Shown here: in pieces, positions 60,802 through 61,772 of the stretch
Numbering within the stretch: position 1 is the stretch's first letter
Layout of the letters: each line of letters begins with the position of its first letter
Assembly: GCA_020746835.1 (NCBI GenBank)
Contig: JAGPNK010000010.1
Coordinates: forward strand, 310,001-374,000
Direction: 5' to 3'
Length of the DNA stretch: 64,000 nucleotides
From: Stachybotrys elegans
Lineage: Eukaryota; Ascomycota; Sordariomycetes; Hypocreales; Stachybotryaceae
Notes under the pieces: model-generated
Seen by the model: only the letters and a program-made list of their open reading frames with translations
The model's database searches: none
What the model was told of the DNA's origin: nothing
Position numbers and translations under genes: made by a program

Positions 60802-61772
60802 ATGAGTAGTCCACGACGAAGAATCGAGACTGATGTAAGTTCGAGCCGTAAGGGATGCCGGGAGCTGGTGGACTGACCCTGTTGCAGGTGATGAAGTAGG
60901 CCATACGTCGGGTCCATCATGGTTCTTCGTCTTGCTAACCTTTTTCTAGGATGTACGATTCTCTGCTCGCGGCCATGCTACCATGAATGACTGACGCATG
61001 TAGGCTCATGAGTGACTACGAGGTGACTCTGGTCAATGACAACAGTATGTTCCTCCCCTGCATGCCCCCCGGCCCTGCTAACCCGCACAGTGTAAGTATG
61101 GCCCGCGCTCGTCATCCACGGCCTTGTCTCATCCAAGCAGGCAAGAATTCTTTGTTAGATTCAAGGGACCGGCCGAAAGTCAGTACTCTCCTCAGCACTC
61201 GCAGCTCGCCATTTTACTAACTGGTTCCTCGCAGCCCCGTTCGAGGGTGGTCTCTGGAAGGTGCATGTCGAACTTCCCGACACCTACCCCTTCAAGTCGC
61301 CCAGCATTGGGTTCGTCAACCGCATTTTCCATCCAAACATTGATGAGCTGTAGGTTCCCAACAATTCCTCCAAGAGGCCGCGCGCTAACCATGGCAGGTC
61401 CGGATCCGTCTGCCTCGACGTCATCAACCAGACCTGGTCTCCCATGTTCGATATGATCAACATCTTCGAAGTCTTCCTGCCCCAACTCCTCCGCTACCCG
61501 AACCCTACCGATCCCCTCAACGGCGAAGCCGCTGCCTTGCTCATAAGGGAACCCAAGAGCTATGACGCCAAGGTCAAAGGTAATAAGCGGCATCCAACCC
61601 CTCCACTCCCACCTTGTGAGGCTAACGGATGTTAGAATATGTTCAAAAGTACGCCACTAAGGATGCCGCGGACGATGCCGGAGTCGAGAGCGAGGATGGC
61701 GACGACATGTCCTCGGTAGCAAGTTTTGGGGACGACGACGATGAGCCCGCCGGCCAGATGGACGACGTATAG
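60802..61772 (+). CDS. ubc8: Ubiquitin-conjugating enzyme Ubc8/UBE2H, with an 8-nt and a 1-nt exon
   Basis: Eight exons give an intact 184-residue E2: 60802-60834, 60888-60895, 61004-61044, 61091 (one base), 61141-61178, 61235-61349, 61398-61579 and 61636-61772. The product begins [20 protein letters not shown] as in yeast Ubc8. It continues [18 protein letters not shown], the HPN motif FHPNID and catalytic Cys in [15 protein letters not shown]; the C-terminus is acidic, as in UBE2H. Ubc8 works with the GID/CTLH E3 ligase to degrade gluconeogenic enzymes such as FBPase. The single T at 61091 lies between CACAG and GTAAGT and completes the Met codon of VNDNMQEFF; leaving it out destroys the frame. 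The total exon length, 555 nt, is a multiple of three only with both tiny exons. Confidence 0.9.

Follow-up and report, generated by a model that had tools for sequence, protein, structure and literature searches.

A probable single-nucleotide exon in the ubiquitin-conjugating enzyme gene ubc8 of Stachybotrys elegans

The gene ubc8 of Stachybotrys elegans lies at positions 60802-61772 on the forward strand of the 64,000-nucleotide (nt) stretch of contig JAGPNK010000010.1 analysed here (the window), and the fifth of its nine exons appears to consist of one base, the T at position 61091. We put at roughly 0.93 the probability that this T is a real exon of one nucleotide, probably a constitutive one, as judged from the sequences of the gene and its homologues. 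It is bounded by the CACAG of intron 4 and the GTAAGTAT of intron 5, which leaves one base between the AG and the GT of two complete, compact introns standing back to back. An earlier note on this DNA had GACAACA end at 61044, the two introns span 61045-61090 and 61092-61140, and coding resume with GCAAGAATTC from 61141, all of which is right to the base; the signals that it named are in place (GTATGT, GCTAAC and CACAG in the first intron, GTAAGT and GCAG in the second), no other AG lies within the first intron, and the coding sequence of 558 nt comes to exactly the 185 codons that it had given, plus a stop.

The T is required for the reading frame and for the conserved protein. Joined to the A before it and the G after it, it forms the Met codon of the family motif VNDNMQEF, as that note had proposed, and when in-frame products were enumerated with the other exons fixed (one or two introns of at least 30 nt, or nested introns of at least 20 nt), NDNMQEF was obtained solely from the pair 61045-61090 and 61092-61140. 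Skipping of the T shifts the frame, and the protein then ends after 98 residues. At 46 and 49 nt, introns 4 and 5 resemble the other six introns of ubc8 (48-56 nt), a single intron over 61045-61140 being about double that length at 96 nt; all eight are GT-AG and carry a branch-like YTNAY motif that ends 8-13 nt short of the intron end. The pattern YAG-T-GTRNGT occurs once on both strands of the window (128 kb), at T61091. With CTAAC placed 3-15 nt upstream it is found six times on both strands of the 43.4 Mb genome (61 contigs), T61091 included, and the reversed control pattern is found 14 times; as the composite is commoner in the reversed control, it is not enriched genome-wide, and the argument is one of a specific coincidence of place. 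By our own arithmetic, the chance of the composite falling where one missing T is needed, on one of 16 positions if neither intron is to be under 40 nt, is about 1e-6.

The product of ubc8 is, on its sequence, an E2 ubiquitin-conjugating enzyme of the yeast Ubc8/human UBE2H type, with a UBE2H-type UBC core, a CLDVINQTW active-site region, the Cys of which we take to have the active-site role, and an acidic C-terminus. Among solved structures, the best sequence matches are human UBE2H (8pjn) and an entry deposited under the name Ubiquitin-conjugating enzyme E2-24 kDa (8pmq), which we take to be yeast Ubc8; its chain 8pmq_E reads NDSMQEF, without an insertion. Models from Fusarium torreyae and F. 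lateritium (P0015, P0028) share 98.1% identity with the protein over the part that runs from FFVRF to the C-terminus. A search of the same genome for an intronless paralogue or retrocopy found none among 15 matches, two of which are ubc8's own exons and the next best of which is 37% identical; as ubc8 is single-copy, an intronless paralogue cannot confuse the picture.

Homologues were taken from two protein searches (the best 120 of 5428 and the best 120 of 5075), both ranked by similarity to queries carrying the Met, which together gave 195 distinct proteins. Two plant-labelled proteins (P0001, P0111) were dropped before counting, leaving 46 transcript-like proteins (sources lgn, jgi, ena or merc only, mostly short contigs, intact frames) and 147 genome models, the mixed-source P0072 and P0156, both of which pass, being counted among the latter. 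Met-[QS]EF without insertion is present in 46/46 of the transcript-like homologues versus 19/147 of the genome models. The transcript-like proteins have VNDNMQEF in 37 cases and length-conserving variants (VHDN, INDN, NDS, NNN, MSEF) in nine, and VNDNMQEF also stands in 17 of the 19 passing genome models; three of these 19 come from Saitoella, Taphrina and Lipomyces, which we presume to lie outside Pezizomycotina, and without them the count is 16/144. Proteomes, phylogenies and structure predictions may carry errors where they use such models, since 128 of the 147 depart from Met-[QS]EF at the T61091 site.

This trouble is not general to the gene. At three other ubc8 introns, motif checks succeed for 139, 142 and 135 of the genome models (n = 147); the transcript-like proteins (n = 46) give 45, 42 and 44, a measure of how strict the motifs are. 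A basidiomycete-like query was used for a third search (the best 120 of 5503, only the 94 new proteins being counted). The genome models that it added, 56 in number and none bearing a Pezizomycotina name, all keep the length of the site; the strict motif is met with in 54 of them and in 32 of the 38 short-contig proteins, the exceptions being, by eye, same-length substitutions. As the control introns pass and the models from outside Pezizomycotina keep the length, the misannotation appears to be specific to the T61091 site and, within the sample, to Pezizomycotina. Of the transcript-like proteins, P0081 is basidiomycete-like, at 98% to a Lactarius model, and P0121, which reads NDNMQEF, matches the Aspergillus niger model P0147 exactly over its last 154 residues, the insert of P0147 decoding to the one-nucleotide exon layout. 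Separately, a UBC8 entry that carries the name of the plant Anthurium amnicola (P0267) has a fungus-like sequence and is probably contamination.

Much of what the genome models contain at this site can be decoded. NDNS[K/M/T/E/G/R]QEF, in 19 models (20 with NDNSQQEF), corresponds to a donor A|GTNNGT shifted to the GT four bases on, and the extra residue mirrors the unshifted donor (K for GTAAGT, M for GTATGT, E for GTGAGT). NDNKF, in 17 models, comes from use of the AG inside CAAGAATTC, and NDNMY, in 16, from the A and the T followed by the second intron read as GTAY; the residue after NDNMY has a codon starting with G in 16/16, as T|GTAYG requires, against a background of 0.366. In ten models everything between the first donor and the last acceptor is read through, and seven of these back-translated inserts fit A|GTRNG..CTRAY..YAG|T|GTRNG..CTRAY..AG|G (shuffle expectation 0.02), with introns of 47-56 nt (first) and 52-67 nt (second); two that do not fit, of 66 and 69 nt, are too short for two introns at a 40-nt minimum. 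Where models enter at AG|T, the retained second introns fit T|GT..CTRAY..AG|G in 8/8 cases in the C-frame (expected 0.8) and in 4/5 in the M-frame (expected 0.34). Pattern scans for DNA of the orthologous locus found no relative among 44 matches in viral_contigs and none among eight in genome_contigs; it is the decoding of the misread models that points to conservation of the one-nucleotide layout in orthologues, from which P0067, P0133 and the models ending VQEF, discussed below, differ.

Such decoding also bears on the alternatives, which the earlier note had held either to run into a stop or to lose the conserved sequence. None indeed gives NDNMQEF, but that account was incomplete: VNDNSMQEF (186 amino acids (aa); 61049-61140, donor GTTCCT), VNDNKFF (183 aa; 61045-61145 as one intron) and VNDNIRQEF (186 aa; the T exon with an acceptor at 61137) are all in frame, and they matter because the gene models of relatives use exactly such solutions. 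The best placed of the rivals, which we still regard as improbable, is the downstream-shifted donor, by which one 92-nt intron (61049-61140) would add a single residue. Its product is in frame, is full length and keeps QEF, and the same four-base shift accounts for the NDNS-type models described above (19/147, and NDNSQQEF in one more), but GTTCCT is poor as a donor next to GTATGT and GTAAGT, the insertion is seen in 0/46 transcript-like homologues and is lacking from 8pmq_E, and a donor, branch site and acceptor pair already in place would be left unexplained. An mRNA reading ..AACATGCAAGAA.. would contradict the shifted donor, and AACAGTATGCAA or AACAGCAAG as the main product would contradict the one-nucleotide exon.

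It is very improbable that alternative acceptors coexist with the one that ends intron 5, either the upstream member of a NAGNAG at 61137, giving VNDNIRQEF as a minor product, or that of 61045-61145, giving VNDNKFF. Both products are in frame, NDNIRQEF occurring in one Beauveria model and NDNKF in 17/147 genome models, but neither NDNIRQEF nor VNDNKFF is found in any of the 46 transcript-like homologues, and an alternative acceptor as the main product would break a strongly conserved stretch. A stwintron, in which nested introns are removed and an exonic base between them is absent, deserves mention as nested twin introns are many in the same fungal subphylum (PMC12403724), and two adjoining introns, each under 50 nt, resemble one at first sight. 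Here, however, 0/156 in-frame nested solutions give NDNMQEF, and the four that keep VND..QEF all yield NDNSMQEF through the weak GTTCCT donor, which makes this explanation scarcely credible; an internal intron that interrupts a splice element of an external one, with no base between, is not what the locus contains, as no nested solution leads to NDNMQEF. An assembly or sequencing error, with a coding base lost from beside one ordinary 96-nt intron, is about as improbable, as models from independent genomes agree both with a deficit of one base and with an AG-T-GT arrangement here, and such an intron would be about twice as long as the others of ubc8.

Against a single-nucleotide exon at T61091, or against its wide conservation, several observations have to be weighed. 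The branch-like site of intron 5, CTCAT, is weak. Transcript-derived status of the 46 proteins is judged from source tags, mostly short contigs and intact frames; P0032 lies on a 7280-base contig and P0045 has no listed contig. The tail of P0121 is equally identical to models from A. fumigatus and A. tubingensis and, being common to the models of three Aspergillus species, is not proof of the same species. Six of the seven fitting read-through inserts come from four Fusarium species and are non-independent, the seventh being that of Aspergillus niger; P0067 (Claviceps africana, 87 nt) is long enough for two introns and does not fit, and neither does the M-frame insert P0133. All six read-through models ending VQEF (Cordyceps, Apiospora, Zarea, Tricladium and two Penicillium) fit an ordinary single intron, A|TG, where 0.48 would be expected, and five genome models from different fungal groups (P0069, P0079, P0097, P0114, P0183) read NDNRQEF, with an Arg that none of the simple splice-site shifts of the A|T|G layout explains. 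Taken together, the VQEF and NDNRQEF models indicate that the layout varies and is not universal.

On the decoded models, the two-intron state (A|T|G) has its best support in Fusarium and Aspergillus, with weaker indications from Hortaea (NDNMYV), Drepanopeziza (NDNSK) and Tuber (NDNSE). With classes assigned by printed organism names and five lineages looked up, there are signs of it in five classes, Sordariomycetes, Eurotiomycetes, Dothideomycetes, Leotiomycetes and Pezizomycetes, weak in three of them. We consider it likely that the one-nucleotide exon is ancient and constitutive, that it goes back to the common ancestor of Pezizomycotina and survives in five classes, and that some lineages have repeatedly lost the second intron. 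In this history two intron positions would lie close together within a Met codon (A|T|G), some lineages having one intron only (A|TG).

As regards splicing, introns 4 and 5 may be recognised by intron definition and taken out in succession. Positions -3/-2 of the intron 5 donor are the AG of intron 4, and simultaneous binding of the 3' and the 5' site should therefore not be possible. Intron 4, with GTATGT and CTAAC, would probably be removed first, and intron 5, with its weaker branch site, after it; removal of intron 4 would bring ACAT against GTAAGTAT. The eight bases of GTAAGTAT match the usual U1-binding consensus, the full consensus through +8, and a donor of this kind should need little exonic help. 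Either order of removal would give the same mRNA, and skipping of the T, with its 98-residue frameshifted product, could serve as a quality-control or regulatory outlet.

The whole exon-intron structure of the gene is given in Table 1.

Table 1. Exons and introns predicted for ubc8, in positions of the window.
Feature	Positions	Strand	Length	Remarks
Exon 1	60802..60834	+	33 nt	
Intron 1	60835..60887	+	53 nt	GTAAGT..CTGAC..GCAG
Exon 2	60888..60895	+	8 nt	GTGATGAA
Intron 2	60896..60949	+	54 nt	GTAGGC..CTAAC..CTAG
Exon 3	60950..60952	+	3 nt	GAT; completes Lys14, two bases of Met15
Intron 3	60953..61003	+	51 nt	GTACGA..CTGAC..GTAG
Exon 4	61004..61044	+	41 nt	end ..GTCAATGACAACA (VNDN + A)
Intron 4	61045..61090	+	46 nt	GTATGT..CTAAC..CACAG
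Exon 5	61091..61091	+	1 nt	T, middle base of Met29 codon
Intron 5	61092..61140	+	49 nt	GTAAGTAT..CTCAT (weak branch-like site)..GCAG
Exon 6	61141..61178	+	38 nt	first base = G of Met29
Intron 6	61179..61234	+	56 nt	GTCAGT..CTAAC..GCAG
Exon 7	61235..61349	+	115 nt	
Intron 7	61350..61397	+	48 nt	GTAGGT..CTAAC..GCAG
Exon 8	61398..61579	+	182 nt	
Intron 8	61580..61635	+	56 nt	GTAATA..CTAAC..TTAG
Exon 9	61636..61772	+	137 nt	acidic C-terminus + stop

A second very small exon, the GAT of exon 3, is the sole listed solution for VMKMLMSD; without it the product reads VMKLMSD, in frame and one residue shorter. Full-length VMKxxMSD is found in 46/46 transcript-like homologues versus 49/147 genome models, the misreadings at this site including 43 models without one residue, eight with VMKMY and eight with VMKY; the VMKMY models fit GAT|GTAYG in 8/8 cases and the VMKY models AA|GTAYG in 7/8. 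Some models from outside Ascomycota (P0201, P0271, P0277), for example from Russula and Lentinula, have inserts right after VMKL, a hint that the phase-2 intron in codon 15 predates Pezizomycotina and that its neighbour, three bases upstream, is the newer of the two.

If the reading of T61091 as an exon is right, the limiting case of splicing would extend beyond plants and one Fusarium P450 to a core ubiquitin enzyme of filamentous ascomycetes, and most of the examined public ubc8 models from Pezizomycotina would be wrong at this point. Were the exon also ancient, fungi would have in a nuclear gene a counterpart to the one-nucleotide exons that are so deeply conserved in plants. Neurospora and Aspergillus would offer a tractable system for overlapping 3' and 5' splice sites, for the order of intron removal, and for skipping of the T as a form of dosage regulation. 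A paper on a ubc8 micro-exon was not found in the open-licence literature, the area searched being outside subscription journals and preprints, and in the available part of PMC5007530 ubc8 appears only as a deletion in Cryptococcus. The gene, which has a housekeeping role, would be the second in fungi with a one-nucleotide exon, and there are signs that this exon is conserved throughout Pezizomycotina and systematically misannotated.

The earlier note knew of no fungal example described in detail, a statement overtaken by Nelson & Syed 2026 (PMC12940212), who describe a one-nucleotide exon in CYP621A of Fusarium, confirmed by RNA reads and called the first in a fungal gene. Both cases concern a nuclear fungal gene with one exonic base between two introns and a phase gap of one base within a conserved motif, and the CYP621A exon is also nearly always misannotated. 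There, however, the exon is a G, the middle base of a Gly codon, known from Fusarium orthologues of a P450 said to be rarely expressed, whereas ubc8 encodes an E2 of the ubiquitin system, has a T in a Met codon, shows signs in five classes and has a 3-nt exon upstream. One-base exons can also be left by mitochondrial group II introns in Ophiostoma (PMC12308204). The stwintrons of Pezizomycotina (PMC12403724, PMC5639578, PMC9024468, PMC6616335) are similar in that two adjoining U2 introns are removed at one site in two consecutive reactions, and in the same subphylum, but in a stwintron a splice element of the external intron is split by the internal one, with nothing exonic between the two, whereas ubc8 has one coding base there. 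With the A|TG intron of other Pezizomycotina the gene has the first donor position in common, but the second intron is absent there, and hence the one-nucleotide exon too. In plants, where the earlier note was right that such exons had been reported, those of APC11 (PMC4674806) and VPS55 (PMC8831610) are likewise single bases missed by annotation, VPS55 having a strong donor, GTRAGT, and they are deeply conserved in land plants, the APC11 base being absorbed into a larger exon in intronless copies. They differ from ubc8 in belonging to land plants and to other genes, and in spacing, the Arabidopsis APC11 base lying 333 nt into a 422-nt interval compared to 46 into 96 in ubc8.
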